From Ricordea florida (Eukaryota; Cnidaria; Anthozoa; Corallimorpharia; Ricordeidae): a DNA stretch of 64,000 nt. The stretch is taken from contig OX453277.1 in the NCBI GenBank assembly GCA_949710005.1, forward strand, positions 5,184,501 through 5,248,500. The letters are read 5' to 3'. The stretch's first letter is position 1, and every line of letters starts with the position of its first letter. Of the stretch, positions 5,099-42,600 are shown piece after piece. The notes beneath the pieces were generated by a model. It ran no database searches and was not told where the DNA came from. It was given only the letters and a program-made list of their open reading frames with translations. A program made the position numbers and the translations under genes.

Positions 5099-6062
5099 AG
5101 TAGATGTAAATCGGCGGTTCTGGCGCAATTTGAATTTTTCGGCAAAGTATCGGCAAAGTCTTGGGAAAGTCTCAGCAAAGTATCGGCAAAGTATCGGCAA
5201 AGTCTTGGGAAAGTCTCAGCAAAGTATCGGCAAAGTATCGGCAAAGTCTTGGGAAAGTCTCGGCAAAGTCTTGGGAAAGTCTCGGCAAAGTCTCGGCAAA
5301 GTATCGGCAAAGTATCGGCAAAGTCTTGGGAAAGTCTCGGCAAAGTCTTGGGAAAGTCTCGGGAAAGTCTCGGCAAAGTATCGGCAAAGTCTTGGGAAAG
5401 TCTCGGCAAAGTATCGGCAAAGTCTCAGCCAAGTCTCGGCAAAGTATCGGCAAAGTATCGGCAAAGTCTTGGGAAAGTCTCGGCAAAGTCTTGGGAAAGT
5501 CTCGGGAAAGTCTCGGCAAAGTATCGGCAAAGTATCGGCAAAGTCTTGGGAAAGTCTCGGCAAAGTATCGGCAAAGTCTCAGCCAAGTCTCGGCAAAGTC
5601 TCAGCCAAGTCTCGGCCGAGTTCACAAGTCCCGTCGGAAAGCGGGAGGCCGACAGGCGGAGCGAGCCGCGCGAGCGGAGGGCGATTCTATCATTGAAACT
5701 GGCGGGTTTGTGCCAACGGCGAAGTCTCGGCAAAGTCTCAGCCAAGTCTCGGCCAAGTCTCGGCAAAGTTCGCAAGCCCCGTCGGAGGGCGATTCTATCG
5801 GTGAAACTGGCGAGTTTGTGCAGATACAAAACCGATACGAAAGCGATAAAAAAATTTAAAAAAATATGGTTTAAAAGAAAGAATAGTGGAATACAATACG
5901 AAATGGAACAATTAAAAGACGTTGAATTAAAAGAAATTTTGAGGGAGTTGCGTATACGGGGGAGAAGTGGTATGCGAAAAGCGGAGAAAATAGCGGCATT
6001 GCGCGAAAGGGGCATAAACACACAAGAGGATTTGGAAAATTACAGGCGGAGACTTAATGAAG
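5099..6062. repeat. Left terminal inverted repeat of element 1
   Basis: It matches the reverse complement of 19700-20674 through the bases cttaatgaag, after which the two sides diverge. It contains the 11-bp tandem array, a GC-rich unique part (5620-5800), an AT-rich leader and the first about 53 codons of a SAP-like frame starting at 5903. Confidence 0.93.
5140..5617. repeat. 11-bp tandem array in left TIR
   Basis: About 43 units of 11 bp, chiefly cggcaaagtat, cggcaaagtct and tgggaaagtct, plus cagcaaagtat and cagccaagtct variants. The unit has no stop in any frame, so long meaningless open frames cross it on both strands. Position next to the terminus suggests binding sites for a replication or integration protein (inference). 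Confidence 0.95.
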
Positions 6063-6196
6063 AACAGCCAAGGCTTGGCACGCCACCCGGTTCTCCTCCG
6101 CCAAGAACGCCGCCTGGGTCTCCTCCACCAAGAACGCCGCCGGCCGCGTTTCCCGGTTCTCCCTCGCCAAGAAAAATTGAAAAGGAAAAATATTAG
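5903..6196 (+). CDS. SAP-like N-terminal reading frame spanning the left TIR boundary
   Basis: The frame starts at an ATG preceded by AT-rich leader. It encodes a basic SAP-like helix-loop-helix (MEQLKDVELKEILRELR, then GRSGMRKAEKIAALRERG) followed by proline-rich GTPPGSPPPRTPPGSPPP and a stop at 6196. The frame continues upstream through the 11-bp array, but that part is a repeat artefact. The first 53 codons are identical in the right TIR. The polymerase frame overlaps it in another frame from about 6057. I infer this is the original N-terminus of the polymerase, separated by a frameshift in the proline-rich stretch. Alternatively it is a separate 97-residue DNA-binding protein. Confidence 0.6.
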   Translation: MEQLKDVELKEILRELRIRGRSGMRKAEKIAALRERGINTQEDLENYRRRLNEEQPRLGTPPGSPPPRTPPGSPPPRTPPAAFPGSPSPRKIEKEKY

Positions 6197-6281
6197 AAAA
6201 AGGAAACTAGCACCAACTTTTATAAAACCACAAAAACGATCAAAACAAACTTTTAATTGGGGAAATTATTCATTCAAGGTT

Positions 6282-9200
6282 ATGGATAAAGACGAGTTTT
6301 CTAAAAAGCTTGAAGATTTAACCAATGAAAATATTATAAAAATTACCAATAACAAACAAACAAAACCCAGACCTAGAGAAAATGTGAATATATCTGATAG
6401 TGTGAGAGATGAATTGGATGAACAATTTAATATAGAAGAACAACAAACAGCATTGCGGGGTTATCTGAAAACTCATAGGATAGATGGGAAAAAAGGGTAT
6501 GGCCCAAATGCATTTATCAATAAAATCAAACCAAAAGTTTTAGATCTAGTTAATAAGCAAAAGAAGCCCATCAAAATCAAGTTCATCTTTACCTGTAAAT
6601 TTAAACAAATAAATCCTGATAAAGATGATCTTTTGCGTCTTTTTATTTATACTTTTGGCTACTTTCATTCAAAAAATGTAGAAATAATAACAGAAGCAAC
6701 TGATTTTTCTGAATTATACGATACAATGACAAATCACTTACTTGAACAGGTTGAAGATTTTCAAAATTCAGGTTCTGGAGGGATATTCGATCAAGTGGAA
6801 TATTTTGATATTTTCATCGATCCTTATGAACCTATTTCTGGAAGTTCTTACATTCCACTGCCGCGGGTATTGGAATCAAAGAAAGCAATTATAAACGTTA
6901 AAAATGAGAATGATTATGAATGTTTCAAGTGGGCAATAACTTCCGCCGCTTTTCCAAAAGAGAAAGATCCACAAAGATTAAATAAACAAATGAGGGAGAA
7001 CTCTGAAAAGTTTAACTGGGCAGGAATGAAGTTCCCCGTTAAATTGAAAGATATTGATAAGTTTGAAAAACAAAATCCTTATTACAAGATTCACGTCCAT
7101 GGGTTTGATAAAGATAAGGGAGAAGTATACCCTCTGAGAATAAGTAAAAAAGAAAAAGGTTATGACATTGAATTACTTCTAATAACGAATGAAGAAGGAA
7201 ATAGTCACTATTGTTGGATAAAGAATTTTAGTAGACTTGTATCTTCACAAATAAATAAACAACACAAACGAGAATTTTGTCGTAGATGTTACAATTCATT
7301 TACCACAGAAAAATCATTGGAAAAACATCTGGAATATTGTGCCAAAAATAAAGAAGTTAAGATTGAAATGCCAAAGGATAAAGATGGAAATCCCAAGTAC
7401 ATTAATTTCATCAATTACAACAGAAAAATGCGAGTACCCTTTGTTGTGTACGCTGATTTTGAGAGTTTTACAGAGAAAATAGATACATGTTCACCCGACC
7501 TTCGCAAAAGCTTTACCAAACAATACCAAAAGCATACGCCATCGGGATTCTGCTATATAATTATATTTTTTGATGAAAATTATGAAAATGTTATTAGACG
7601 ATACACAGCCGAATCTCCGGATGAAGACGTTGCCCAGATATTTATGGATAGTTTAGAGTCGGATATTAGGGGAATTTACAATAATTTTAGATACAAAAAG
7701 AAAGTTAGGATGACTGAAGAAGATAGAACAAGCCATAATTCTGCTACACATTGCCACATTTGTGAAGATGAATTGGGGGGAGATAAGGTAATAGATCACT
7801 GTCACCTTACAGGAAAGTACAGAGGAGCAGCCCATAGGGAATGTAACTTAAAATTCAAAGTTCCAAAGTATTTTCCGGTAATATTTCACAACCTATCTGG
7901 TTATGACGCTCATCTTTTTATCAAAAACCTTGGCGTAACAGAAGGTAAAGTAAATTGTATCCCAAATAACGAGGAAAAGTACATTTCTTTCACAAAACAG
8001 ATTGTGGTTGATACATTTACAAACAAAGAAGGCAAGCTGGTTAAAGTGAAGCGAGAAATTAGATTCATAGATTCATTTAAATTTATGCCAACCAGTCTTG
8101 ACAAATTAGTAAATAATCTCCCTAAAGAATCTTTCAAAAACTTAGCGAGCTATTATGAAGGCGAACAATTAAAGCTGTTGTTGAGAAAGGGTGTATTTCC
8201 CTATGAATGGTTTGACAAATTTGTAAAGCTAAATGAAACCAAACTTCCATCAAAGGAAGAATTTTACTCTAAACTCAACGACGAAGAAATAAAAGAAGGT
8301 GATTATCAGCACGCGCAAAATGTATGGAAAACCTTCAAAATGAAAACAATGAGAGAATACCATGATTTGTATCTCAAGACGGACGTACTACTTTTGGCAG
8401 ACGTATTCGAGAACTTTAGAGATGTTTGCCAAAAGAATTATGGTTTGGATCCCGCCCACTATTACACGGCACCAGGACTAGCTTGGGACGCTATGTTAAA
8501 GTACACAAAAGTGAATTTGGAGTTGCTAACTGACATCGATATGTTGCTTATGATTGAGAAAGGTATTCGGGGCGGCATCTCTATGATTTCCACTAGATAT
8601 GGAAAAGCAAACAACCCCTACATGAAAAACTTTGATATTAACAAAGTAATAAGTTATATTATATATCTCGATGCAAATAATTTATATGGAGGGGCAATGA
8701 GTAGGCCACTACCTACTCACGATTTTAAATGGATGAATGAAAAAGAGCTTATATACTGGGAAAATACTCCATGCATACTAGAGGTTAATTTGGAATACCC
8801 AACTAAACTTCATGATTTACATAATGATTACCCGCTTGCTCCAGAGAGGCTTTTAGTTAATAAGGTCGAGAAATTAATCCCAAATTTAAACAATAAGGTA
8901 AAGTATGTTGTTCATCATGAAACACTAAAATTTTATGAAAGTTTGGGATTAAAAATAACAAAGATTCATAGAGGTATTACATTCAAAGAGTCTGCTTGGT
9001 TAGAACCATATATTGGCAAGAATACCGATCTAAGATCAAAAGCGAAGAATGATTTTGAAAAAGATTTTTTCAAGTTAATGAACAATTCTGTGTTTGGCAA
9101 AACAATGGAAAACATTAGAAATAGGGTTGACATTAAATTAATTACAAATCAAAAAGATGCAAAAAAATTAATATCAAAACCTAACTATCATCATCGCGCA

Positions 9201-9890
9201 ATCTTTTGTGAAAATCTTGTAGCCATTCATATGAAGAAAACAAAGTTAGTATTCAATAAACCCGTTTACTTGGGCATGTGCATTCTGGATTTAAGTAAAA
9301 CCATAATGTACAACTTTCACTACAATTACATCAAACCGAAATACGGTGAAATGGCAAAATTACTTTTTACAGATACGGACAGCCTGATGTATTTAGTAGA
9401 AACGGAAGATTTCTACAAGGATATTGCGCCGGACGTGAGAGAAAGGTTTGATACTTCAAATTTCCCTGAAAATCATAAATCAGGTATTGAGATAGGAGTA
9501 AACAAAAAAGTCGTAAATATGTTCAAAGATGAGGCTGGGGGAAAAACGATAGCGGAATTTGTGGGTCTGAGGGCCAAGCTTTACTCATACAGGATGGACG
9601 AAGGCGAAGAAGAAAAGAAATGTAAGGGGTTGAAAAAGGCAGTAGTAAAAAAGACCATAAGCTTTAATGATTACAAGGATTGTCTTTTCAGCAAAAAGCC
9701 CCAAATGAGACAAATGAATGTGTTTAGAAGTCGTTTGCATGATGTTTACACCGAAACTGTTAACAAAGTTTCGCTGTCTTGCGATGATGATAAAAGAATA
9801 ATTTGTGAAGACGGAATTAATACTTTTGCCTACGGGCATTATCGGGCGGGGTCTTTTAAAACAGAATCTGGCGGGAGTTCTGTATCATAA
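6282..9890 (+). CDS. polB: Protein-primed-type DNA polymerase B of element 1
   Basis: This would replicate the element DNA by protein-primed synthesis, as in Polintons and adenoviruses. Visible motifs in order: a C2H2-like segment (CRRCYNSF...H) near 7280-7340; exonuclease I YADFES near 7447; an HNH/endonuclease VII-like zinc insert (CHICED ... DHCHLTGKYRGAAHRECN) at about 7750-7850; exonuclease II NLSGYDAHLF near 7891; exonuclease III YLKTDVLLLAD near 8370; polymerase A DANNLYGGAM near 8667; B NNSVFGKTMENIRNR near 9079; C FTDTDS near 9370. All catalytic motifs look intact. The frame is open from 6057, but residues before the ATG at 6282 come from a shifted reading of a proline-rich coding stretch, so 6282 or a frameshifted start at 5903 is more likely. 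Its 3' end overlaps the convergent integrase by 52 bp. Confidence 0.92.
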   Translation: MDKDEFSKKLEDLTNENIIKITNNKQTKPRPRENVNISDSVRDELDEQFNIEEQQTALRGYLKTHRIDGKKGYGPNAFINKIKPKVLDLVNKQKKPIKIKFIFTCKFKQINPDKDDLLRLFIYTFGYFHSKNVEIITEATDFSELYDTMTNHLLEQVEDFQNSGSGGIFDQVEYFDIFIDPYEPISGSSYIPLPRVLESKKAIINVKNENDYECFKWAITSAAFPKEKDPQRLNKQMRENSEKFNWAGMKFPVKLKDIDKFEKQNPYYKIHVHGFDKDKGEVYPLRISKKEKGYDIELLLITNEEGNSHYCWIKNFSRLVSSQINKQHKREFCRRCYNSFTTEKSLEKHLEYCAKNKEVKIEMPKDKDGNPKYINFINYNRKMRVPFVVYADFESFTEKIDTCSPDLRKSFTKQYQKHTPSGFCYIIIFFDENYENVIRRYTAESPDEDVAQIFMDSLESDIRGIYNNFRYKKKVRMTEEDRTSHNSATHCHICEDELGGDKVIDHCHLTGKYRGAAHRECNLKFKVPKYFPVIFHNLSGYDAHLFIKNLGVTEGKVNCIPNNEEKYISFTKQIVVDTFTNKEGKLVKVKREIRFIDSFKFMPTSLDKLVNNLPKESFKNLASYYEGEQLKLLLRKGVFPYEWFDKFVKLNETKLPSKEEFYSKLNDEEIKEGDYQHAQNVWKTFKMKTMREYHDLYLKTDVLLLADVFENFRDVCQKNYGLDPAHYYTAPGLAWDAMLKYTKVNLELLTDIDMLLMIEKGIRGGISMISTRYGKANNPYMKNFDINKVISYIIYLDANNLYGGAMSRPLPTHDFKWMNEKELIYWENTPCILEVNLEYPTKLHDLHNDYPLAPERLLVNKVEKLIPNLNNKVKYVVHHETLKFYESLGLKITKIHRGITFKESAWLEPYIGKNTDLRSKAKNDFEKDFFKLMNNSVFGKTMENIRNRVDIKLITNQKDAKKLISKPNYHHRAIFCENLVAIHMKKTKLVFNKPVYLGMCILDLSKTIMYNFHYNYIKPKYGEMAKLLFTDTDSLMYLVETEDFYKDIAPDVRERFDTSNFPENHKSGIEIGVNKKVVNMFKDEAGGKTIAEFVGLRAKLYSYRMDEGEEEKKCKGLKKAVVKKTISFNDYKDCLFSKKPQMRQMNVFRSRLHDVYTETVNKVSLSCDDDKRIICEDGINTFAYGHYRAGSFKTESGGSSVS

Positions 9891-10867
9891 GGAATAACCT
9901 GTAATTCTTCCCTTACAAATCCTCGCCTTGGCCCATCTACTAAATAATACAAAACTGGCTGATTTGGTGAAACGACGCTACGAGTAATGTAATAAACTTT
10001 GATACTCCAAATAGGATCAGTAGCACGCCTTTGTTCTCCCCCTTCAAGCTCACCAGGGGCTAATAAATACCGAACTTTAACACTAGGCGGCAATCTACCC
10101 TCATCAATACCAACAACTCGTCGGTATTTTTTAGGTTCAATATCAACCTCTTTCAGTTTTATAGCCTCATTGGGCTCTTTACCGGTTATTCTCGTTGGTG
10201 TATTATTCAAAGTTTTCAAAATACCTGGTAATCTTTTCACCCATACTCTAGATCGATCATCACTGATCATTTCTTGCGCGTATTGATGACTAAATAATCT
10301 TTCTCCTAATATTCTATTTGCTCTTTCAACAAAAGCTTGGGCCTTATGATTTCCGGCTTCACTTCTCTGTATTTTCACATTATGGTAATTCATGAGTTTA
10401 CCAACTTCGCCCATAAATTCTTTCCCAGGATCAACCATTAATGTTTTGGGGTATCTCATTTTCCTGGAATAAATTTTTCTAAAAGCATTTGATATCTCTA
10501 GACTTTCTTTTGTAGTTAATGGCTCGGCATCTTTGTATCTTGAGGCCACATCAACCACAACTAACGCGTATTTATAAGTTTTTCTCCCGACTCTATCATG
10601 CGGCAAAAATAATAAATCTGCTTGGTGAATCTGGTTCGGTTTATCCACAGTCCAGTGCGGCCTTGGAATATACTTTGGAGCAGGAAGATAGATTTGCCAA
10701 ATTGCTTGTTTCTCCAACCATTGTTTTGCCTCATTTTCACTTACTTTCGCTTTTTCTGCTAATTTGGGAATCGCGGAATATCCTTTCCAATACCCCTCAG
10801 TTGAATAATATGTACGCTCGAGTTGTGGGGAGGGTTTTGCCCGATTTTTCGTTAAATTAAAACTCAT
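9839..10867 (-). CDS. int: DDE (retroviral-type) integrase of element 1
   Basis: This 342-residue protein joins the element ends to target DNA. An N-terminal helical part (YYSTEGYWKGYSAIPKLAE) is followed by the catalytic core with aspartate in HQADLLFLPHDR, second aspartate in MVDPGKEFMGEV and glutamate in AFVERANRILGERL, spaced like a DD35E integrase. A C-terminal chromo-like segment carries LYYLVDGPRRGFVREELQVIP. It is intact and fits the clean 5-bp target duplication. It is transcribed away from the capsid gene group, sharing a 31-bp divergent promoter region with the next gene. Confidence 0.93.
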   Translation of the reverse strand: MSFNLTKNRAKPSPQLERTYYSTEGYWKGYSAIPKLAEKAKVSENEAKQWLEKQAIWQIYLPAPKYIPRPHWTVDKPNQIHQADLLFLPHDRVGRKTYKYALVVVDVASRYKDAEPLTTKESLEISNAFRKIYSRKMRYPKTLMVDPGKEFMGEVGKLMNYHNVKIQRSEAGNHKAQAFVERANRILGERLFSHQYAQEMISDDRSRVWVKRLPGILKTLNNTPTRITGKEPNEAIKLKEVDIEPKKYRRVVGIDEGRLPPSVKVRYLLAPGELEGGEQRRATDPIWSIKVYYITRSVVSPNQPVLYYLVDGPRRGFVREELQVIPYDTELPPDSVLKDPAR

Positions 10868-10898
10868 TTAAGGTTAACAAAGTATCTTATAAATTAAA
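10868..10898. promoter_or_regulatory. Divergent promoter between integrase and the 70-residue gene
   Basis: The short spacer contains AAAGTATCTTATAAATTA ending two bases before the plus-strand ATG. The same string recurs in front of the candidate capsid gene (11098-11115). It is A/T-rich and TATA-like; promoter function is inferred. Confidence 0.55.
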
Positions 10899-11111
10899 AT
10901 GGAGGAAGAAAAAACAAGTTTTACCGCGTATCAATTTAATCTTATGAAAAAAACTATCATTAAAGAAATTTTGGATATTGAAGATGGTAGTGAACTTTTT
11001 AATCTTTCACTTGTAATCAATGGAGTAAGAGAAAGTTTATTGAAGCATATTAAAGAATTAGAGAATAATATCATCAACACAGGTTTAAAGGTTAACCAAA
11101 GTATCTTATAA
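10899..11111 (+). CDS. Small helical protein of unknown function, element 1
   Basis: 70 residues, starting MEEEKTSFTAYQFNLMKKTI, rich in Lys, Glu and Ile, predicted mostly helical, without membrane segment or cysteine. It sits between the integrase and the candidate capsid gene and ends 6 bases before the next ATG. I do not recognise it and see no counterpart in element 2. A repeat of its own leader (AAAGTATCTTATAAATTA) precedes the following gene, so this may be a small leader-duplicated insertion. Confidence 0.6.
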   Translation: MEEEKTSFTAYQFNLMKKTIIKEILDIEDGSELFNLSLVINGVRESLLKHIKELENNIINTGLKVNQSIL

Positions 11112-11117
11112 ATTACA
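11091..11117 (+). promoter_or_regulatory. Repeated promoter-like leader of candidate capsid gene
   Basis: GGTTAACCAAAGTATCTTAT then AAATTACA runs up to the ATG at 11118. It repeats the leader of the preceding gene almost base for base, 217 bp apart. The match overlaps the coding end of that gene, so the similarity is not just AT richness. Confidence 0.55.
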
Positions 11118-12359
11118 ATGACGTCTGAAAAAATTAACCCAAATAGAGTCCCGAAAGAGCCATTTGGTTTGAAAGCGGAATCAACATTAAATAGAATTAC
11201 TCTCAACCCCTCATCAGCCAGCCCTGGTGAAACATTATACATAAATATTCCAAAACTTTCCGAGAATTTGGTGATTGTGCCTGGAAGTGTATCTCTTTTG
11301 TTTGATTTGGATGTCGGGGGCCACACAAATAATACGGTTGTTAATAATTTGGCGGCTAATCTTGTATCCAGATTAAAAGTTCTTTTTGGCGGTGAAACGT
11401 TACAGGATACACAAAGATATGATCTATTTCAAACATATCATGATTTATTCTTAACCGAAGAAGAGCGCGAAGATAGATTAAAACAAGGCATTTCTTTAGA
11501 AAATATGAGAAAACTCAGAACAAAAGCGGGTGATGCAAAAACACAAGATGTAAAGGAAGTGGCGCTTGCTAATGTGCATGGCACAAAGTATAGAATTCCA
11601 ATAAATCATCCTATTCTAAACGATCATGGCGTTTTTTATCCAAAAGCACTAGAAAATCACCTAATATTTGAGATTACACTTGCTCCAATTAATAATATTC
11701 TTATTTATTCTGATACAACTAAAACACCATCATATTCAATCAAAAACTTGGAGTTGGAATATTCTTCAATTTCAAGCGAATACTTAGCTCGCGAGGCGCG
11801 ATCAACATATCAAGTTGGTAAAGGATTCTTTTATGAAAATATTACTTTACACAAGACTTTTACATTTTCCATAGGCGGTGATGGTGTTATTAATCAACAT
11901 ATTAATTTACCAAGAAGATCAATGAGTGGAATATTATGTTTGTTTTTATTACCGCAAGCTGCTGGAGCAAGGGATTCTGAAAATTTTTATAATCCAGGTA
12001 TATCTTCCGTTAATATTGATGTTGATGGTGTGCCAAATCGAATATACTCTAGGGGTATGATTCCGTCAGATCTTTGGGAATCTGTGAAAAAAAGGTTTGA
12101 TAGAGATGATGGTTTACAAATTTCACTAAAAGAAAAGGATTTTTATGCTGATAAGTTTGCTCTTTGGGTTGATATGAGAACTCATCCCGATAATAGTATT
12201 CATGGTGGAGGGCTTGCTCTAAATAATACGCATGATGGTGTAAAAATAGAAATTAAAAGGAAACAAAGCGGTTCAGGAACAATAACTTGTTATATGTTTG
12301 TTGTAGCCGATGCAATGATGGAAATAATGAATTCAAGCTTAAGATCAATCATGTACTGA
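11118..12359 (+). CDS. Candidate major capsid protein of element 1
   Basis: 413 residues, no membrane segment, rich in predicted beta strands. Conserved stretches shared with the element 2 homologue include NPSSASPGETLYINIPKL, VVNNLAANLVSRLKVLFGGE, NHPILNDHGVFYPKALENH, GVPNRIYSRGMIPSDLW and SGSGTITCYMFVVADAMME. The length, strand-rich pattern and place directly before the packaging ATPase fit a double jelly-roll capsid protein of Polinton-like viruses. That fold is inferred and cannot be proved from motifs. It is shorter than usual Polinton capsid proteins (about 550-650). A structure prediction would settle it. Confidence 0.65.
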   Translation: MTSEKINPNRVPKEPFGLKAESTLNRITLNPSSASPGETLYINIPKLSENLVIVPGSVSLLFDLDVGGHTNNTVVNNLAANLVSRLKVLFGGETLQDTQRYDLFQTYHDLFLTEEEREDRLKQGISLENMRKLRTKAGDAKTQDVKEVALANVHGTKYRIPINHPILNDHGVFYPKALENHLIFEITLAPINNILIYSDTTKTPSYSIKNLELEYSSISSEYLAREARSTYQVGKGFFYENITLHKTFTFSIGGDGVINQHINLPRRSMSGILCLFLLPQAAGARDSENFYNPGISSVNIDVDGVPNRIYSRGMIPSDLWESVKKRFDRDDGLQISLKEKDFYADKFALWVDMRTHPDNSIHGGGLALNNTHDGVKIEIKRKQSGSGTITCYMFVVADAMMEIMNSSLRSIMY

Positions 12360-12388
12360 CTTAAAAACCTTTAGTTGTAATACAAAAA

Positions 12389-13015
12389 ATGCAAGAATTG
12401 CGTGAAAAAATCCCATTTCATTGTATTATAACTGGACCAACAAATTGTGGGAAAACAAAGTACCTAATTGAACAGCTGCGGGGTCATTTCCGAAAAGTTT
12501 TTGAATACATTGTTTTAATATGCCCAACCTATTCTAAAAATAAAACCTATCATAATTTTGCCCGAGGAGATAAACGTTTTTTTGTATTATCGCCGGATGC
12601 AAGTAATGTAGATGAGATTAATGAATTGTTAACTGTTTGTCAAACTTTGTTCTCCGGAACAAATACATTAATAATTTTAGATGATTGTGCCGTATCCACT
12701 GATCTGAAGAAAAGATCAAATAAGTTCATAGATTTAGCATTCTCCGGAAGGCATCATGGTTTGTCAATGTGGGTTCTAACTCAGCAATTAACATCAATAG
12801 CAAAACCATTCCGGGAAAATGTTGCCTGCGTTGTTACTTTTCATAACCCATCGCAGAAAGGCATGAAAATGTTTTTTGAGGATTATGGGGGTGATTTGGA
12901 TTATGAATTAGGTAAAAAGTTTGTACAACTCCTAAAAACAGAAAAATATTCTAGGCTATGTTTATCTTTGCGCCATCCATTTAATTGCTATTTAGAGATT
13001 CCCGAGGTGATTTAA
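12389..13015 (+). CDS. FtsK/HerA-type (A32-like) genome-packaging ATPase of element 1
   Basis: 208 residues. Walker A is GPTNCGKT near residue 16 and Walker B LIILDDC near residue 95. The segment FSGRHHGLSMWVLTQQLTS carries the conserved glutamine-containing sensor of this ATPase group. It probably pumps element DNA into capsids. It follows the candidate capsid gene by 29 bp, a pairing kept in element 2. The length fits Polinton packaging ATPases and all key residues are present. Confidence 0.9.
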   Translation: MQELREKIPFHCIITGPTNCGKTKYLIEQLRGHFRKVFEYIVLICPTYSKNKTYHNFARGDKRFFVLSPDASNVDEINELLTVCQTLFSGTNTLIILDDCAVSTDLKKRSNKFIDLAFSGRHHGLSMWVLTQQLTSIAKPFRENVACVVTFHNPSQKGMKMFFEDYGGDLDYELGKKFVQLLKTEKYSRLCLSLRHPFNCYLEIPEVI

Positions 13016-13020
13016 CAAAG

Positions 13021-13545
13021 ATGGATAATATTGAAGATTACATTGAAGAAAAAACAGACCGGCCGTTGGTAAAAGATAATGAGCTTGAAATCAAACAAGA
13101 ATCACTTGCTATTCTCGCGACGCTCGGAACAACAAAGGAATATTTGGGGGTTGAAATGAGCCTGGGTGATGTAAAAAAATTAGCAGAAAAAGATGTAGAA
13201 AAATATTTTAATCGTTACCAGGCAGTAATGGGTAAGAAAATTAACGGCGGGTTAGTGGATTCATCCCTACAATTAGTTTCTAAAATTATTTCATATTTGG
13301 TTCCGGTTGATGATATAGAAGCTCTTTGCGCGGATTTGAAGAATGATGATTTGGTTAATCGCGAACTAACAAACATTGTTGGGCTCTTGGCATTGAAAGC
13401 AGGAAGATTGGCAGCACTTGCTAGCGGGTTATTTCAAGTAGCCAAGCATATAAAATTCAACAAAAATCAACAAGAACCAGCAAATACCAACACAACTAAT
13501 CAGGAAACTATGCAATCTACTGAAGGTATTGATACTGTACACTAA
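13021..13545 (+). CDS. Conserved element protein (EYLG-SLGDV family), element 1
   Basis: 174 residues from the ATG at 13021, five bases after the ATPase stop. An acidic N-terminus (MDNIEDYIEEKTDRPL) precedes a helical body with NTKEYLG-like TTKEYLGVEMSLGDVKKL, then YQAVMGKKI, and a hydrophobic, alanine-rich segment near residues 125-150. The element 2 protein at 33159-33689 matches over the same core and has the same neighbours. Function unknown; a structural or assembly role is plausible because it lies in the capsid-ATPase cluster. The open frame begins upstream at 12985, but that overlaps the ATPase and the homologue also starts MDD. Confidence 0.75.
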   Translation: MDNIEDYIEEKTDRPLVKDNELEIKQESLAILATLGTTKEYLGVEMSLGDVKKLAEKDVEKYFNRYQAVMGKKINGGLVDSSLQLVSKIISYLVPVDDIEALCADLKNDDLVNRELTNIVGLLALKAGRLAALASGLFQVAKHIKFNKNQQEPANTNTTNQETMQSTEGIDTVH

Positions 13546-13574
13546 TCAGATCTAAAAACTTATTTGCAGCAACA

Positions 13575-13976
13575 ATGTCTGAACAATCTGAAGTAGAGCA
13601 AATTACTGCAGATCCCAAACCTGAAAATAAAGATACTAAAAAGAAAGAGAAAGACCCTAAAAAGGTCGCGGCTGGAAAGAAATTAGCGGAATATAATAAA
13701 AAAGCAAAAGAAGCATTAGATAGGGAGATGAAGCGGGAGGAGCAAATGAAAATTGAAGATAATCAAGAAAAGACAAATAGTGAATATAAATCGTGGCTTC
13801 CAGAGTTATCTTTTACTACTGTTTTATCCATTGTTGGATTGGGGTTTACGGCATTTGATCTTTTTATGAGATATCGGGAAAAAGCTAGGGTTGAACAACC
13901 TTTTCAAGCCCCGCCCATAAAGATTCATAACCCGCAACCACAACCCCCAGATCGCCCAAAAATTGGAATGATGTAA
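13575..13976 (+). CDS. Small Lys/Glu-rich single-pass membrane protein, element 1
   Basis: 133 residues. A charged N-terminal half carries KEKDPKKVAAGKKLAEYNKK, a strongly helical, probably coiled or nucleic-acid-contacting stretch. One hydrophobic segment follows (TTVLSIVGLGFTAFDLFM, residues about 80-97), then a proline-rich tail. Element 2 has a homologue at 33746-33982 with KQKDPKKVAGGRALAARN and a similar membrane segment. Function unknown; gene order is conserved. Confidence 0.7.
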   Translation: MSEQSEVEQITADPKPENKDTKKKEKDPKKVAAGKKLAEYNKKAKEALDREMKREEQMKIEDNQEKTNSEYKSWLPELSFTTVLSIVGLGFTAFDLFMRYREKARVEQPFQAPPIKIHNPQPQPPDRPKIGMM

Positions 13977-14022
13977 ACCCTAAAAGACATCTAAAGATTT
14001 CTTACGGATTTAGTAAAAAATC

Positions 14023-14241
14023 ATGTCAACTGAAAACAAACTTGTGAAAACTGTTACTGATTCTGCGGTTCTTATTGGATTAGCGTCGGGAGTTGGGTAT
14101 GTGGCCAAAAAGATGATGAAAGAATCATTTTTAAACGACCCATCTTCAAGTATTACAAATTATGCAAAATGGGTTGCTGTATTATCCGGAAGTATGTATC
14201 TAAAAACATATTTAGAGGAACAAAAGATTTTACCAAAATAA
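14023..14241 (+). CDS. Tiny membrane protein (DPSSS-NYAKW family), element 1
   Basis: 72 residues with two weakly hydrophobic segments (VLIGLASGVGYVAKKM and WVAVLSGSMYL) around the conserved loop DPSSSITNYAKWVAVLSG. The element 2 gene at 34088-34309 has DPSSSIENYAKWVAVLSG, one of the best-conserved strings between the two elements. It ends 6 bases before the next gene. Function unknown; membrane or capsid-vertex association is only a guess. Confidence 0.75.
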   Translation: MSTENKLVKTVTDSAVLIGLASGVGYVAKKMMKESFLNDPSSSITNYAKWVAVLSGSMYLKTYLEEQKILPK

Positions 14242-14247
14242 ACAAAC

Positions 14248-14640
14248 ATGGCATCAATAGCGATGATGATTGGCGGAGCTATATTGAATGCAACAGCATT
14301 TACTGGCGGAAATATTCTTGCGAAATATCTTTCAGGGAATAAAGTGGATACAGAAAAAATACGACACGATAAAGCAATGGAAAAGTATCAAAAAGATTAC
14401 GCAGAATATCAGGAAAAAAGACAAAAAATGCTTGATTGGAAAATGAAGAAAAAAGATGAAAAATATCAAGCATCAAAAAATATTTCAACTACAAATCAGG
14501 CTTTTGAATTGTATAGCCAAATGCAGGAGCCAAAATTTTCAGATTATTACAAACCAAACGATGAACAAAAAACAGGAGAAATGGTATATGTTGGGGCTGG
14601 AATGCTGGGTTTAGGTTATGTGGCCAGCAAATTCTTGTGA
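14248..14640 (+). CDS. Two-membrane-segment coiled-coil protein (AILNATAF family), element 1
   Basis: 130 residues. An N-terminal hydrophobic segment (MMIGGAILNATAFTGGNIL) is followed by a charged coiled coil (about residues 35-75), a conserved FSDYYKPNDEQKTGE loop and a C-terminal hydrophobic segment (VYVGAGMLGLGYVASKFL). The element 2 homologue at 34288-34701 has the same plan (AILNATAFVGG, WSDYYRPSS, YVGGGMLAIGYAASRWL). Function unknown. It is the last plus-strand gene before a convergent junction marked by a hairpin. Confidence 0.75.
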   Translation: MASIAMMIGGAILNATAFTGGNILAKYLSGNKVDTEKIRHDKAMEKYQKDYAEYQEKRQKMLDWKMKKKDEKYQASKNISTTNQAFELYSQMQEPKFSDYYKPNDEQKTGEMVYVGAGMLGLGYVASKFL

Positions 14641-14685
14641 TGTTGGATAACATTGAGTGCATCAATTGAAATAAGTTATCCAACA
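14641..14685. terminator. Hairpin between convergent genes of element 1
   Basis: TGTTGGATAAC (14641-14651) and GTTATCCAACA (14675-14685) form a perfect 11-bp stem right after the stop of the plus-strand gene and before the stop of the minus-strand gene at 14694. A two-way transcription end or RNA-stability element is inferred. Confidence 0.6.
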
Positions 14686-14693
14686 TAAATGAC

Positions 14694-14966
14694 TTATTTA
14701 CATATTTTCGAGGTAAGTTTTTTCAACATTTCCTCATCACTAATACTATTATCATTTTCTATTCCATATTTTTCTGCTAATTCAGCTCTCATTTTCCTTT
14801 TATCTTCTTCAAGGTCTCCATCTGGATTATATTCTTTTTGAAATTTACTTAAAATTTTATTTGCATCTTGATACGAAATAACAAATCCTATTTTTTCACC
14901 GTAATTTACTAAATCGTCGGTACTAATTTTAATAGTTTTGTATTCTTGTCCTTCTTTACTCGTCAT
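14694..14966 (-). CDS. Small acidic protein of unknown function, element 1
   Basis: 90 residues starting MTSKEGQEYKTIKISTDDL, highly charged, helical, with NPDGDLEEDKRKMRAELAEK, faintly like an EF-hand loop but without the full pattern. It is the only minus-strand gene inside the plus-strand cluster and its start faces the next plus-strand gene. No counterpart is seen in element 2. Not recognised. Confidence 0.55.
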   Translation of the reverse strand: MTSKEGQEYKTIKISTDDLVNYGEKIGFVISYQDANKILSKFQKEYNPDGDLEEDKRKMRAELAEKYGIENDNSISDEEMLKKLTSKICK

Positions 14967-15030
14967 TTTATTTTACTTTCTTATCTTTAAATCACATTTC
15001 AATTTTAAAAGGTCTAAAGTTTTCTTTCTG
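14967..15030. promoter_or_regulatory. Divergent spacer, element 1
   Basis: 64 bp between two diverging starts, AT-rich, containing GGTCTAAAG 14 bases before the plus ATG. Related TCTAAAGAT-like strings precede the genes starting at 14023 and 17185. A promoter role is inferred. Confidence 0.4.
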
Positions 15031-16053: not shown

Positions 16054-16106
16054 ATTAAGAAATGCCCCATAAATGCGAGGAGGAAATAACTTTTTTGTCA
16101 ATCACA

Positions 16107-16460: not shown

Positions 16461-16470
16461 GTAGTAGAAA

Positions 16471-18798: not shown

Positions 18799-18800
18799 TT

Positions 18801-18832
18801 TGTTATGTAACCAGTAATTAGGTTAAATAACA
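18801..18832. terminator. Hairpin between convergent genes of element 1
   Basis: TGTTATGTAACC (18801-18812) and GGTTAAATAACA (18821-18832) make a 12-bp stem with one mismatch, 3 bases after the stop at 18798 and before the convergent gene ending at 18929. It matches in placement the hairpin at 14641-14685. Confidence 0.55.
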
Positions 18833-33600: not shown

Positions 33601-36600
33601 TAGGTTGCCACACAGAGTCTTCGACGGCCGCAGGCCCAGATGCTAGCGATCCTGTGGTTCCTCTTGCAGAGTCTTCGACAGATCGCTAGGGTCCCGCTGG
33701 CAATTTTTTGGTGTTTGTATAGTATACGAGCCCTGTCTGAAAGTGATGGAAGAAGAAGAAGATCGTATTACAGCGCCGGCCGCTCCCGGAGCTCCGAATA
33801 AGCAGAAGGATCCTAAGAAGGTCGCGGGTGGCCGAGCCCTCGCGGCTAGGAACAAAGAAGCTCGACAAGCTCTGGCTCGAGAGCGGGCTCGCGAGAGCCA
33901 CGACGACGAACCACACCGAGCTACGACAAGCTGGAATTGGGGGCTCCTGATTGCCGCAGGGGTCTGTTTAGTCTGTATCTAGCGCATCTCAAGCAACCGC
34001 AGCAGCAGCCAAAGCTTACTCACCCGCCACCCGAGCCTGCGCGGCCTCGCGAAATTATGGAATAGATTTTTGTATTGTATAGTCTCGATGGACAACAAAG
34101 TCGTAAACACTGTGGTCGAAGCGGCAACTCTGACAGGCATTGCTGCTGGTATCGGTTGGGTGGGGAAAAAGGTTCTCAAAACGCCTATGATCTCGGACCC
34201 TTCCTCGTCGATTGAAAACTACGCGAAGTGGGTTGCAGTTCTCTCGGGAGCCGTCGCAGCTAGGCAATACTTAGTCGATAAAAAGTTATGGTTGGTGGGG
34301 CTATCTTGAACGCTACGGCCTTCGTTGGTGGTTCGTATCTCGCACGGGCGATTTCTGGTAAAGGTCCCGATGCAATGGCAGCTGAGCGGAAGCGCCACGA
34401 CAAAGCCTTGGAAAAGTACCAGGCTGACTGGGCTGCCTTTCAGAAACGCCGTGAGAAGCTTGCAGATTGGGAAGTAGAGCAGGAACGCCTGCGCAATAGA
34501 GCTGACCAAGACACAGCCTCAACAAACCGCGCTCTCGACCTGTACGCTAAAACCCATCCTCGTCCCACAGCAGTTGATGACCACGACGCCCCGCAATGGA
34601 GCGATTATTACCGACCTTCGAGTTCCCAGCGAACGGGTGAACTGGCCTATGTAGGGGGTGGGATGCTCGCCATTGGGTATGCTGCTAGCCGATGGTTGTG
34701 AGACCACAATAGCTTTTTTCGCGATGGAACTATAGACCAATGGAAAACAAGCTGTCCGATATCTACTACAGCCCCCAGGGCTATTGGAAGGGACACGCCG
34801 CGTCGAAGAAGTTGGCGGTCTCGGCTGGCGTCTCTGAAGATACCGCCCTGGCTTGGCTAGAAAAACAGGCAATTTGGCAGATCTACCTCCCGCCTCCACA
34901 ACGCATACCGAGGCCGAGGTTCAATGTCTCAACACCAAACGAGGTTCATCAGGCCGATCTTCTATTTCTTCCTCACGACCGACTTGGGCGAGGGCGGAAG
35001 CTTTACAAGTATGCTCTCACTGTGGTCGATGTTGCCTCGCGCTACAAGGAGGCTGAGCCTTTGGCTTCAAAGGAAGCGAAAGAAGTCGCGGGGGCGTTCG
35101 AGCGCATCTACAACTGAAGCCCTTTGACCTGGCCCAAGCTACTTCAAGTCGACCCGGGAAAAGAGTTCATGGGAGCTGTCTTGCCGCTACTAGCTCGCCA
35201 CAATACCGAAGTTCGGCGTGGCCGCGTGGATATCCACCGAGACCAAGCGATCGTTGAGAGGTTCAACCGGACTCTAGCCGAGCGGTTGTTCGGTTACCAG
35301 TACGCCCAGGAGATGCTTCTTCCCGAAGGAGAAAGATCGGTTGAATGGGTGACTAGGCTGCCTGCTGTTGTCGCGGCTTTGAACAACGAACCAACGCGGT
35401 TGATCGGGAAAAAACCGCAGGATGCCATCGAAGCCAAATCGGTGGCGCAAAGCAGGTCCTCCTCTGTTGTACCGGGGAGAGCGGTTGGTTTGGAGGAGGA
35501 GAGACTTTCGTCTGACGCCGACTTACGGTATTTATACCAGCCCGGCGAACAGGAGGGTGGACGAAGACGTGCAACGGATCCAATTTGGAGTCTCGAGGTT
35601 CTCGACCAAGAGCGCGCGATTGTTCGGCCTGGTGAGCCTGTGGTCTACTATCTCAGAGACGGCCCCAAACGAGGCTTCGTCCGCGAAGAGCTGCAGGTAG
35701 TTCCTTGGAATACCGAATTACCCCCGAAAGGCGTACTCAAGGGGTTCGGTGTGAATCCCGTCGGGTAGCACCCGTCTCTTGTCGTAGTAGGCGGAAAGCC
35801 CTAATTTCTCCTGGTGGTAGGTTGTCATCTGCCCGTCGACCATGCGGAAGCCTCGGTTTTCTGCCCGGTCGAGCGCTCCATCGAGGGTTGCTTTGTATCT
35901 CCCCCAGGTCAAGTCGTTGTCTTTCTTGGCCATCCCCTTCGCCGAGGTTTTACTTTTTTCTTCGCTGTCGACGTAGTACGCCTTGCAGCAGAGCGCTATC
36001 GCCCGGGTGCCCTCGAACTCTAGCTTGAACAGGCCCGGCGTCCGTCCGCTCCACTTATCCCAAGCGAGCCACTGTTTCTTGCAGCCCTCGAATTCTCCGC
36101 GGAGCTCTGAGCGTACGACTTCATCTAAGCTGGTCCCGGAGCTGGCCATGTACAAGCTGTCCGTATCCATTTGGATCAGCTCGAAGTCTTTCCTATCTAC
36201 GAAACGATCAAGGAAATCGTAATAGAATTCGAGCATCCGTAGTTTCGCTAACTGGTAAACCGTGATCCCTATTTGAAACGGGCGGGTAATTTCTATCGTC
36301 TGCTTCCTCCTGTGTAGTTCAGAGGCTTCACCTATTTCGTTGAGGTCCTCGAACCAGGAAGATCGGAGAGCACGATCGACCACCGCTTCGTCTGTTGTGT
36401 ATGAGACAAGCGTCTGGCGCTCCAGGGCTTCAATGAATTTGCCGTAGCAGTTATTCCCCAGCAGTTTGAAGAGGTCGGCGAATAGTGCTTTGTCTTTGTC
36501 GGTATCGCCTTGGCGTCTGGCTTCGGTTACTTGATCGACGAACCACCCGAATATCTTTTGGGGTTGGTAGTCGATCGTTCTGTAGACCGCGGTGACAACC

Positions 36601-39600
36601 AAACCGTGGTCGAGGTACCAACGGAGCAGAGGGGCGTACAACAGAATCTTCTTGGCCCATAGGGCCCCAACCAGCTTCGCATCTGTTGAGCGGGTTCGTC
36701 CTGTTCGCTCGAGACAGTCCAGCATCTCTTGGGGGACCGCTTCGACGGGAATCTCCTTGCTGTAGAAGAGCGGGGGCATTTCTTCGAACTTTGGCCAGAG
36801 GTATTTGGGGACCTCGATGTCAACCTCGGCGAACCCGAACCACCTTCCTTCGCGGAGAGCCGCCACGAACCCTTCTACATCGTCCGGCCTACGACAGTGG
36901 CCCTCCCCGCAGGGCATCGGGGCAGCCATGGTGGAGAGATAGAGCGCGTTGGCGTCGTAGCCGAGGATGCGCTGACAGGGGCGGGCCTCTGCGACCTGAT
37001 GGGAACGGATCCTCGAGACCCCCGCTTCGTGGTACCTCGTAAACACAATCGAGGGTCCGCCTGTGACGCTGGCTTTAAGCATGTTGTACGCTTCTTTGTT
37101 TGGGGCGTACAGCTCAGGCGCGTTGGGTCCTGTTAGCGTCCCTCGAAGTACAAACCTCATCGAGACACCCGGTAGACTTACCGCATCTTTGAAGATGTCG
37201 ATGCCATAGTCTGTGTAGAAGTCGCGCATCTTTTGGAGGGCTTCGACAAACGGGCCGACGTCAAGATTGTTATAATAGCGGAGCCAGTCCGCGAACGTCT
37301 TCATCCCCTTCTCTCGAAATAGCTTTTTGCAAGCTCGATAATCCGAAAGGGAAAGGAGATATTTGCCTTTCATTTTCGAATACCACTGTGGGTAGTCCGG
37401 TAAGCCGGGAAAGTCGAGCTCGTCGGGGATATCGAACCAGTCGTACGGGAACCACGACTTCGCGAGGGTACACCCGTAGGCTTTGACCCAGGCGTCGTAG
37501 GTTTTCCCAGGACCGATATAGTTCACAACGTCGAGGAATTTGAAGTCCGGAGTCGTAATGAACATGATCTGGTTGGCCTTACATCCTACTTTGATGGACT
37601 GGTCGGTCGTCTTACAGAGCTCTTCGACGAAGTAGTTCCGGATCAAATTCAAATCGTACTTACCCGAATTGAACCCGAGCACGGGGACTTGGTCGCACCA
37701 CTCTTCAATCGCTAGCCGATACTTTTTGGGCAAGAGCTCGAGGGTGTCGGGCAGGAACTGACGGCGGACGTCTTCTCGTATCCTAGCAGCTCGGCGTTCT
37801 AGCTTTCGCATGAACTCCTCGATAAGCAACTTCGGATCTCGATTACAAAGGTGCTCAGGAACAGGGTAGAGGGTGTCTGATAGTGAGACGGAGATAGGAA
37901 TATGTGTTCCCTCTAGTGTCAGGTCTTCTGTAGGACGACGAGTGCTGGTCTTGTCGAGATAACTCTCGAAGTCATACACGATCGCGTGGGGGTAGGTTGC
38001 CGTCTTTGGATCAAGGATGCGATCTTTTCTCCAAGGTTTTGGCTCCTCGTGCTGCCACTTGACCACAAGGCGATACCCAGCAGCTCGGATTTTGGCTTCA
38101 CGCTCGAGCGTCTGTTGGTATGGCATTTCACGCGTAACAGGGCTGTCCTTTTTCTTGGAAAGATTCTGAAGTAGCTCCTGACGTTGCTTCGGTGATGGGA
38201 AACAGATTTTACACCCGTGCCAGAGGCACCCGTTGAATTGGAAGACGGTCTTTGAAATGGGATCATAACCGTCTACGGCTATACCTTCTATCATTGGCTC
38301 GCCGGTGATGGATATGGATGCCCCTAGTGCGAGCTTCATACTCGAGCCACTGAACGGCCTGAATGCTATCTAGTTTTTGGGGGTAGAACGCAAACTCGTA
38401 GGCGGATGATGGAGCTTCCACTTTCTCTCCTTTGCAGACAACTTTTGTCTCGCCTTGGGTGCAACTATCGGCGTGGCGATAAAGGTTGTCGGTCCGTGTA
38501 AACCTTGCCTTACACTCCCCGCACACGTATACATTCGCGAGTTTCCGGATGTCGCGAATGAGAAACGCGTGCCCCTCGTAGACGCCGATCGTCATTGGTG
38601 GAGTACCTACTTTTTCATAGTGCGCTGGGTGCCTTATATGCGTCCACTCACCAACCTCTGTCGGTTCGTATACCCGAATCCCGAATTTGAAGTGGGCCTC
38701 TACTTTCCGAAGGTCGTCCAGGTGTGTACCTCGGATGTTTGGCGTTTTGAATATCTCTCTAGCAAGAGCTCGGGCTTGGGTGGTGCAACGATACACATGC
38801 GCACCTCGATGGACCGCTATACAGCGAAAGAGGCAGAGGTTATCTCCGTACGTGTCCAAGGAATACATCCCCCGCTTTCTCCTCAACCAATCTGGTAGTG
38901 GTCCTGTGCCCAACAGAGGCGCCTGCCGATCTACTACGACCTTGAATTCCACATAGATAAAGCGAATGAAGGTCCACTTGGTGCTAGGTCGCTCAATTTG
39001 GTCCCTTGACAAGCGCTTCTCGTCTTCCGCCTGCACCCAGTCTCTAGCTTCTGGCTCGAGCCGCTGGATCCAGGGACTGCCTTTTGCTGTTTTTTTCCAC
39101 AACATGATTTTTCCCGTTTCGATGTGTCTTAGTCGATAGGTGTAACTGTATCGCAGATAGCAGCTGGTGACGACCTTCTCGTGGAGCTTATCCATAATCC
39201 GATCCACCAGAGGTCCGTCCACGCCTCGGAAGAAAGACCACTTCCAGAAGCGCCGCCCGCGTTGCTCGCCCTCTCTTTCTCCATCCAACTCTTCGAGTAA
39301 TCGTGACCCTTCTGCGACAATAGATCGCGCTAAGGGTGCTCGCCGGTTTTCAATCCTTCTACGAGCTTCTGCTCTCATCGTTGGAGTAGTCCTCTTTCGG
39401 ACACCCTCCGCGAGAAGAGCGGCGTCAACCTCTCTCGCAAGTTGACGGAGTTCACGTGCTCGCTGCCACTTCTTGTGGGGGTTCTCTATATCCCCTCTGG
39501 TAATAGCAGGGTATCTCCCCGTCGTTAGCGCTCGCCGGAGTCGTTTCCTCCACTCCGCGGCGCGAGCCTCCGCGATAGCTCGTAGGAGGTCAGCTTTTCG

Positions 39601-42600
39601 CATCTTCGAAACCACAGGAAGTCCATAGCTTCGTGCTAAAGAGCGTAACTCTTTGACGGAGAACATGTTTATGGAAATACCTTTGGTGCGCCACTCTCTA
39701 AATGGAAATACTTTTTCCGAAGATTTATAGTATGCATATTTGTCTAAATTGAAATAGCTCATTAACTCTCGGAAAACGCTCGGAAAATCTTCGGGTCATC
39801 TTCGGGTCATCTTCGGGCCATCTTCGGAGCTCGGAAAATTCTCTTAAAATCCAAATTGGAACCCCCTTCCCTTTATACTTGGGGACCTTTACACGCTGAA
39901 AAACGGCTTCTAGCTCAAGTGTAATTTAACTTCCTCCTCTTATACTACTGCACTTATCATGACAACCTATTCGATTAAAGAACTAACGACGCTGTAAACA
40001 AGAAAAGAAAATAAACTCCACGCGAAAAAGTCCTTAATGTTAAACTTGTAAACTTGATCGAGATACGTACGAAAATCCTAAAAACTAACCTGATGAACGA
40101 TGAATATTGCATGCTGACCGAATAATTATTTCCCGGTTTTATAGCGAAAGATAGTACTTGCCTATTTTATGATCACTTCGATAATCACTTCGCCTTGGGC
40201 GAATAATTGTTAAATATGGCATTTTCATGAAAATACTTTCATGAATTAAGCTGTCCACTCTTGACACTCTCGAAAACCAAGTTATGCTGCGACTATCCTT
40301 AAAAATGTTGTCCTTAAATAAATTATTCTATTGCTACAGGAAAATCAAATCCTTTATTTATTAAGGTTAGCACTTACAGTAAATACGCACGAGCAAACTT
40401 GTGTCCCTTAATCTAGCGATTTACAGGAGATTTACGACCTTGAAAAAGACCACAACCATTCTATGCTTGTGTCATATATTCTGTGAGCAAACCTTTTTAT
40501 TTACATGTAATTGTAACAGATTTCAATACTTAATTTTTTTGGTCTTTTTGTTTTAGCTGCTCCTCGATTCACAAGCAAACATCCTTCAGTGATAACTGTC
40601 AAAGCTGGTGGTAATGTTTCTATTAATATCAAAGCACGTGGGTTTCCAGAGCCACATATCACGTGGTCGATACCTAGTAATAGCCATGGAAACAACAATC
40701 AACAACGGTACAAAGCAGTTGGTGGGAAACTGGAGATCACTGATGCACGCTACGAAGATACGGGCATGTACACATGTCGAGCAGAAAACGTTTTTGGAAA
40801 CATAACAAAAAATATAAAGCTGGTTGTTTTTGGTGAGCACTTTTATTTCTTTGTCCTTTCATCAACATTTAACCCAGATGTAGGGCCTTTCTTTTCTCTG
40901 ATCACTTTATGGGTAATTTTGTTTGAATTAGTACTATCCACTAGTACTACCTTTTGTTTAGTAAGGGTCTATAATCTTTTGTAAGAGGTTCAATCATGTC
41001 ATTTTCACAAATAAACCTGTTTCCGTGGAATCCCTAGTAACCAAAAGTAGCACACAGTAAGAAAGAAATACTGGTGTTAATTCAGAAATGGAGTTTTATG
41101 TTTAAACTTATGCACTGGAGTTTAAGAATTACCCACTTAGTTTTCGTTCACGCTCCTAGATTATCGTATTTTTAAAAAACGGCCGCTCATTGTCCTCACG
41201 CCACCTTAACCCTATCCAAGACCGCTCTTTTTCGAAGAACAATAATAGACAGATCCATCTACGGGTATATTACAAACTCACAACATTACCGATATCGCAG
41301 AGGTCATCGGTTCGAACCCCGTTAAGGCCTGAGTTTTTTTTTTTTTTTTTTCAGGCTTTAATTTCACAGCTGCTTAAGTTGTGTACATAACTGCGATGAT
41401 CAATTAACGTCATTAAATAATAGACAAAGTTATGTCCACATTTTACACGCTGACAATGCCTTATTTGTGGTGTAATAACGATTATTAGAAAACGTGACGC
41501 AGTATGGCTGTCATAATTATGATATCACGAAAATATTGTGTTGAATTCTGCCCCATGGTCAGTCGTGGTAACTCGTAGTCGTACTGGATCACTTGTAGTT
41601 ATACGTTGTCACTCGTAGCCATTCGTAGTCACCCTGAGTCACTCGTAGTCACTCGTAGTAATTCGTTGTCACTCGTTAGTCGTAGTCATTTGTGGTCCTC
41701 CATGCTTGTTTTGACACCTCATCGATTTCACACAATCTACAAGTTACTCATTGGACCGGTTTCCTCTTAAATCATTGACACAGGTTCTCCAAGATTCAAA
41801 ACCTTACCACCCGGTGAGATTAAGGGTTATCTCAACAAAACCACAAAGTTGCCATGTGACGTCATAGGTCACCCTACCCCCGTGGTCAAATGGAGCAGGT
41901 CTCCCCAAGCCCTCCTCCCTCAGGGTCGTACTTCATTCAAGAGTGATGGTCTGCATATAAACAACACTCAAAACGAAGATAAAGGGCTATACATTTGTCA
42001 GCCATCCAACAAGTATGGTTCAATCATTCATGGAGTTTTCCTTAAAGTAGAGACAGTAGGTGGGTCCTTACAAGATTCATCTTTTCTAATAAATTATTTC
42101 AGAACTTATTTCCTCCGATTTTTGTCACCTTTCTTTTTAACCTTCACTGTACTTTTCTCTGTTTACTTGGCTTAATAAATTTGCAACTTTTGCTTTTCAG
42201 AGACGCCATTTTTTGCCAGTACACCACCAGCATCAATTTCAGTGAATGGATCGAGAGAATCAGTTCGGGTTAATTGCTCAGCCAAAGGGTCTCCTCTACC
42301 TACTGTCATGTGGTACAGGAATGACGTCATTATGCCCGTCATTAATTACGTCACTGCAGATGAATTCACCAGTGTACTTGCTATTGATGAATTCCACGCC
42401 GCTAACCAGTCCACTTACAAATGCATTGCGCGCAATATGTACAACAATTCGGTGGAAAGAACTTCCAAACTAGGTCAGTGGATTGCTTTATAGCAAATTA
42501 AATTAATTAATTGTTAGGCAGTGACCACCATTCCATTTCGCGGGGAGGAATGTTGGCTTAGTGGTGACAGCACGCCCCGCCCACCTATTTAACTGCGATG

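Follow-up and report, generated by a model that had tools for sequence, protein, structure and literature searches.

Two related Polinton-like elements in Ricordea florida, probably endogenous copies of a virus lineage with a giant-virus-type capsid

Introduction

Polintons (Mavericks), adintoviruses and Polinton-like viruses (PLVs) include several described systems close to two elements, A and B, that are the subject of this study. Both lie in a stretch of 64,000 nucleotides from the corallimorpharian Ricordea florida (assembly GCA_949710005.1, contig OX453277.1, positions 5,184,501 to 5,248,500, forward strand), referred to here as the window and numbered from its first base. A packaging ATPase has been reported in 83% and an adenain/Ulp1-type protease in 74% of Polintons (Krupovic 2014, PMC4028283). 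In the same account, the sole significant HHpred match of the Hydra Polinton PY protein is Vp54 of Paramecium bursaria chlorella virus 1 (PBCV-1), and P-3_NV of Nematostella resembles a protein of PgVV. Two sea-anemone Polintons were placed in PLV group X by their capsid, as possible chimeras with pDNAP and an RVE integrase (Yutin 2015, PMC4642659), and among animal capsids only those of cnidarians lie outside the main Maverick cluster (Bellas 2023, PMC10120064). Virion proteins resembling those of large DNA viruses have also been described alongside a Polinton-type polymerase and integrase (PMC11071296), and we count Meld23486 from that work among the closest known systems. For two cnidarians, genes of giant-virus type have been listed (PMC5294986). 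Vertebrate Mavericks have 6-bp target site duplications (TSDs) and an (AGT)2 end motif (PMC8097293).

A and B very probably derive from two members of a single integrating double-stranded DNA virus lineage, of which they are endogenous copies; in this lineage a Polinton replicon is joined to a capsid of giant-virus/PLV type. On present evidence, two features set the lineage apart from the commonest animal Mavericks and adintoviruses: its capsid and the lack of a detectable adenain-type protease. A sequence-only reading of the window had spoken of a distinct, poorly described lineage. The capsid type, the undetected adenain-type protease and the unmatched small families bear this out, but a wholly undescribed lineage is not supported (PMC4642659, PMC10120064): in outline it has already been noticed in sea anemones. 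No earlier account of the gene set, the small gene families, the 11-bp arrays in the element ends or the likely polymerase swap was found in the open-licence literature, supplements not covered.

Element boundaries and terminal repeats

The interval claimed in the sequence-only reading runs exactly from the first base of A to the last base of B. The two are separate insertions, and the 5-bp TSD of each is an exact duplicate:

5099-20674, no strand: element A, whole, 15,576 bp; TSD GGTGT at 5094-5098 and 20675-20679; ends AGTAGATG
26015-39949, no strand: element B, whole, 13,935 bp; TSD GCACT at 26010-26014 and 39950-39954; ends AGTAGTATA
5099-6116, no strand: A left inverted end; 5139-6116 (978 nt) is 95% identical to 19646-20623, first 60 bp identical; 11-bp tandem array 5139-5616
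19646-20674, no strand: A right inverted end; 11-bp array 20146-20634
26015-26252, no strand: B left inverted end, 238 nt, 98%; 11-bp repeats 26137-26200
39712-39949, no strand: B right inverted end; 11-bp repeats 39764-39828

Identical 5-mers occurred in 142 of 100,000 random pairs drawn from the window, so two exact matches at inverted-repeat ends are not due to chance.

The ends bear on an alternative in which A and B are ordinary Mavericks or adintoviruses with a capsid and small genes too diverged to be detected by sequence, so that the lineage is not distinct. TSDs of 5 bp and not 6 bp speak against it, though as a weak difference, since early Maverick papers give 5-6 bp. The terminal bases, AGTAGA in A and AGTAGT in B, speak for it, since vertebrate Mavericks have a similar (AGT)2 motif at their ends (PMC8097293).

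In both elements, parts of the inverted ends are filled by tandem repeats of period 11, with about 44 copies in A and about 4-6 in B; these are possibly a binding array for end-recognition or replication machinery. The period is close to one DNA helical turn. The units of A and B appear to have a CCGA-like core in opposite orientations relative to the ends, and the right-hand array of A shows a 77-bp higher-order unit.

Genes common to the two elements

In BLASTP, 14 open reading frame (ORF) translations of A were compared with 17 of B, with shuffled B as control (best shuffled E 0.22). Eight families other than the polymerase matched at E 9e-22 to 1e-102, with identities of 65% and 53% for the integrase (B in two pieces), 49% for FRLQK, 48% for the packaging ATPase, 47% for both WPQQLNF and MSLRDRV, 45% for AILNATAF, 43% for EYLG, and 41% and 32% for the capsid (two ORF pieces of B). 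The polymerases are 23% identical (E 4e-23), as against 32-65% for the eight other common genes. KDPKKVA of A had no BLASTP match to its B partner and DPSSS-NYAKW of A was left out of that run; both pairs are supported by Smith-Waterman scores, each reached by 0 of 1000 shuffles. The two methods together uphold the earlier claim that capsid, ATPase and small families are common to A and B. The set then given was incomplete, as the integrase and the divergent polymerase belong to it as well. The small families are:

13021-13545, +: A EYLG-SLGDV family (BLASTP to B)
33159-33689, +: B EYLG family (BLASTP to A)
13575-13976, +: A KDPKKVA family (Smith-Waterman)
33746-33982, +: B KDPKKVA family (Smith-Waterman)
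14023-14241, +: A DPSSS-NYAKW family (Smith-Waterman)
34088-34309, +: B DPSSS-NYAKW family (Smith-Waterman)
14248-14640, +: A AILNATAF family (BLASTP to B)
34288-34701, +: B AILNATAF family (BLASTP to A)
15031-16053, +: A MSLRDRV family (BLASTP); two hydrophobic segments on the C-side
30031-31023, -: B MSLRDRV family (BLASTP to A)
16471-17070, +: A FRLQK family (BLASTP); hydrophobic glycine-rich segment
27495-27923, -: B FRLQK family (BLASTP to A)
17185-18798, +: A WPQQLNF gene; in-frame stop 18409-18411, same frame continuing to 18798
28604-29944, +: B WPQQLNF gene (BLASTP to A)

The + strand of each element carries capsid, ATPase, EYLG, KDPKK, DPSSS and AILNATAF in an identical order. By coordinates, and starting at the polymerase end, this six-gene block is inverted in B relative to A, and the WPQQLNF gene is moved and turned.

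Polymerase and integrase

Both parts of the Polinton replicon signature given by Yutin 2015 (PMC4642659), pDNAP and the RVE integrase, are present in A and in B:

6231-9890, +: A family B DNA polymerase; motifs, endonuclease-VII-like insertion, vOTU-like Cys231/His326 (numbered from 6231, no start codon)
9839-10867, -: A integrase, rve (PF00665, E=9e-8); D84, D146, E181
34740-35768, +: B integrase, rve; in-frame stop 35115-35117
35718-39753, -: B DNA polymerase, pieces 35718-38339 and 38263-39753 in different frames; SAP/Rho_N-like start, vOTU-like Cys307/His395 (from 39753), DNA_pol_B_2

Both polymerases carry the exonuclease and polymerase motifs for which they were examined. B matches DNA_pol_B_2 in Pfam (E=2.5e-16). 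A matches Endonuclease_7 over residues 489-540 (E=8.1e-5, just below the cut-off), and Pfam finds no such stretch in the B pieces. Judging from their family, both enzymes are presumably protein-primed. The B integrase carries the same DDE motifs as A across its interrupted gene, and Pfam gives rve and no chromodomain for either integrase. Polymerase and integrase are of a kind that fits ordinary Mavericks; the lack of a chromodomain match in the integrase speaks against them. Because the polymerase is the least and the integrase the most conserved of the common genes in BLASTP, comparison of the two copies suggests that one of the A and B branches had its polymerase replaced. The sole PDB sequence match of the A polymerase, a short one to RNA-binding protein 7 chains (E 8e-4, residues 373-406), was taken for chance.

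A vOTU protease domain has been proposed for Polinton polymerases, with release of the terminal protein as its role (PMC11071308). Candidate Cys and His residues lie at matching places in both polymerases here, on the N-side of a C2H2-like finger, and the score of A against B over this wider region was reached by 0 of 1000 shuffles. Pfam gives no OTU match in either.

Capsid and packaging ATPase

The virion genes are:

11118-12359, +: A major capsid protein, predicted double jelly-roll; fold model, Capsid_N family matches
31060-32490, +: B capsid gene, ORF pieces 31060-31473 and 31648-32490 with a short A/T-tailed insert between
12389-13015, +: A packaging ATPase (Pox_A32, E=1e-11)
32509-33156, +: B packaging ATPase (Pox_A32, E=1.7e-8)

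Structure prediction for 11118-12359, a check proposed in the sequence-only reading, gave a model of the 413-residue A capsid (pLDDT 88.9, pTM 0.88) with the predicted fold of the double jelly-roll major capsid protein superfamily, nearest to giant-virus capsids. Best Z values were 25.6 for PBCV-1, 24.5 for faustovirus, 22.9 for Singapore grouper iridovirus (SGIV), 22.3 for p72 of African swine fever virus (ASFV) and 20.3 for vaccinia D13, followed by Sputnik (17.8), mavirus (17.1), adenovirus (15.1), Sulfolobus turreted icosahedral virus (STIV, 14.2) and PRD1 (13.9). Capsid_N was matched by 59 of 71 capsid family members at E up to 0.1 (best 2.1e-7), and 24 columns are invariant across the 71 sequences. 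In PDB sequence searches, the capsid profile gave only one chance match (E 0.63) and the ATPase none.

A capsid fold nearest to nucleocytoplasmic large DNA viruses (NCLDV), next to an ATPase that matches Pox_A32, would also be seen in integrated giant-virus fragments with Polinton genes alongside by chance. We give this almost no credence: the whole gene set lies inside exact inverted ends and TSDs, in two separate 14-16 kb insertions. For ordinary Mavericks the fold is double-edged, since the protein is nearest to giant-virus capsids, yet an adintovirus capsid model was matched by Foldseek at rank 11 (E=1.8e-15, 11% identity). The position of cnidarian capsids outside the main cluster (PMC10120064) also argues against them.

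Small families, minor capsid candidates and protease

None of the small families reached a curated Pfam cut-off (A DPSSS not scanned), none had a clear PHROGs match among the five of seven scanned, and none of the three of seven scanned had an NCBIfam match above cut-off. Matches below the cut-offs exist, such as that of the charged middle part of MSLRDRV to a minor tail protein family (PHROGs, E 0.0011). The other ORFs of the elements are:

14694-14969, -: A small ORF, no partner detected in B
16107-16460, +: A small ORF, candidate minor capsid by position, in the same relative place as B 27927-28577
27927-28577, -: B ORF, candidate minor capsid by position
26291-26779, +: B ORF, no partner in A, no Pfam match
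26855-27412, +: B ORF, no partner in A, no Pfam match
18929-19414, -: A Rho_N/SAP-like gene (Rho_N, E=1.2e-5) with four 18-residue Cys/His repeats (54-bp repeats)

The B candidate has no match in Pfam, PHROGs or NCBIfam, and its sole PDB sequence match is at E=0.44. Homology of the two candidates is unsupported, as 109 of 1000 shuffles reach their score. Another ORF, present in each of the inverted ends of A, has a start similar in appearance to that of 18929-19414 (SAP at E 0.08 only), and a SAP/Rho_N domain also begins the B polymerase.

A Pfam scan of 30 ORF pieces from the two elements, without a positive control and with A DPSSS and 18412-18798 unscanned, found no C5/C48 protease match at E up to 1. 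The earlier remark that no adenain-type protease is seen therefore stands, for that type only, because both polymerases have a candidate vOTU-like cysteine-protease signature on their N-side.

Comparison with described systems

A and B have a packaging ATPase, as typical Polintons do, and neither a detected adenain/Ulp1-type protease nor a 6-bp TSD. The sea-anemone Polintons (PMC4642659; P-3_NV, PMC4028283) share with them an anthozoan host and a suggested combination of pDNAP and RVE integrase with a non-Maverick double jelly-roll capsid; the comparison is with descriptions, in the available parts of which small genes, TSDs and ends do not figure. Vertebrate Mavericks (PMC8097293) likewise have pPolB, integrase, ATPase, a jelly-roll capsid and inverted ends beginning AGTAG, but they differ in TSD length (6 bp, against 5 bp in A and B), in gene order and in capsid type, and no protease of adenain type was found in A or B. 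Adintoviruses, as defined in PMC11071296, share the rve integrase and a polymerase with an OTU-like domain (a candidate in A and B); A and B differ from them in having no chromodomain match in the integrase and no detected protease, the capsids being compared by fold only. PLVs also combine capsid and ATPase without protease; unlike A and B they are without an RVE integrase, with one exception (Yutin 2015, PMC4642659). The capsid, the empty C5/C48 scan, the integrase without a chromodomain match and the TSD length lead us to regard ordinary Mavericks with diverged genes as an unlikely explanation.

Relatives, state of the copies and surroundings

Searches returned 861 relatives of the capsid and 1553 of WPQQLNF, of which the best 120 each were examined. 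For 53 of the best 120 capsid relatives the longest contig exceeds 100 kb (up to 3.4 Mb), which fits chromosomal integration. The capsid cluster P0087 has 4980 member sequences, and the B capsid piece has seven relatives, including one at 50% identity in the anthozoan Actinostola sp. cb2023. Capsid and WPQQLNF relatives lie on contigs of equal size five times, versus 0.25 expected (sizes typed by hand). The capsid had no tblastn match in phage records.

B is broken in three genes: the capsid (insert), the integrase (stop 35115-35117) and the polymerase (two frames). The capsid insert (31471-31647) is shorter than 200 bp and retroposon-like: its tail is A/T-rich and a short duplication flanks it. 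A is broken in at least one gene, by the WPQQLNF stop at 18409-18411, and relatives with the gene intact exist. Two integrated and damaged copies, and no free form in scans of IMG/VR, would be expected of transposons that retain capsid genes and no longer make virions. We see only a slim chance of this. Capsid and WPQQLNF hold long ORFs and conserved columns over many relatives, and conservation of this kind suggests that their products are in use.

A C-terminal tail anchor in WPQQLNF was considered and dropped, the hydropathy test being unspecific (see below). Of its relatives of at least 500 residues, 90 of 96 end in FR or FK, and interior stretches pass the same hydropathy test in 240 of 1920 cases.

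G+C is 52% in B (26015-39949), 34% in the core of A (6200-19400) and 37-40% in the surrounding stretches. ORFs in the flanks have matches to collagen, I-set immunoglobulin and uromodulin-type D8C domains. B sits between a collagen-type ORF (25640-26014) and three I-set immunoglobulin ORFs (40523-42490); the insertion is probably intronic, within one host gene. At the left edge of A, the ORF 4623-5057 (-), which has no Pfam match, presumably resembles the endonuclease end of a Penelope-like element. A 67-bp tandem array of about seven copies (89-92% match) occupies 46867-47389, and Rfam has no match in the window.

Evidence against a virus lineage

Several observations weigh against reading A and B as endogenous viruses of one lineage. 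They are known here from integrated DNA alone, with no virion, transcript or free genome shown, and the window holds two copies only. The search of IMG/VR viral contigs gave 0 confirmed relatives, although, with the small number of exact peptide patterns used, it is no proof of absence. The A polymerase matches no polymerase family in Pfam, and for the vOTU sub-region taken alone the score of A against B was reached by 581 of 1000 shuffles. Some giant-virus rows in the capsid comparison are as low as virophages (Z 17.4 for 6ojn_A, 17.2 for 8y3q_A and 15.3 for 8y3r_A). The C-end hydropathy test is passed by 89 of 96 WPQQLNF relatives of at least 500 residues, yet also by 111 of 116 capsid relatives. 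BLASTP also pairs the FRLQK protein of A with MSLRDRV of B (E=7e-4), a cross match taken for common hydrophobic composition.

Proposed cycle and implications

If A and B descend from such a virus, the integrase would insert the linear genome by a 5-bp staggered cut, of which the observed duplications would be the trace. The polymerase, by the habit of its family, would copy the linear DNA from the inverted ends with a protein primer, and on the model of PMC11071308 the vOTU-like domain may separate primer from polymerase. Fold and family suggest that trimers of the capsid protein would build an icosahedral shell and that the ATPase would pack the DNA. MSLRDRV, FRLQK, KDPKK and WPQQLNF might belong to the virion or to a membrane, perhaps an internal one, in view of their hydrophobic segments and their place among the capsid genes. 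Like PLVs, the lineage would dispense with an adenain-type maturation protease, and the polymerase was probably swapped in A or in B.

A wider proposal is offered tentatively, as one we hold to be somewhat doubtful: the elements may represent a cnidarian-wide group of integrating viruses, of family level, that assembles without the adenain-type protease. To a Polinton replicon and a giant-virus-type capsid such a group would add about seven further conserved genes that belong to it alone, several of them with hydrophobic segments, so that the virion perhaps has an internal membrane, and its branches would have exchanged polymerases. Giant-virus and Polinton capsids are thought to have a common root, and chimeras that set a capsid of giant-virus/PLV type on a Polinton replicon are relevant to how the two are connected. 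If the proposal is true, this would be an abundant protease-free animal lineage, whose conserved unnamed genes would serve as markers for free particles in corals and anemones.

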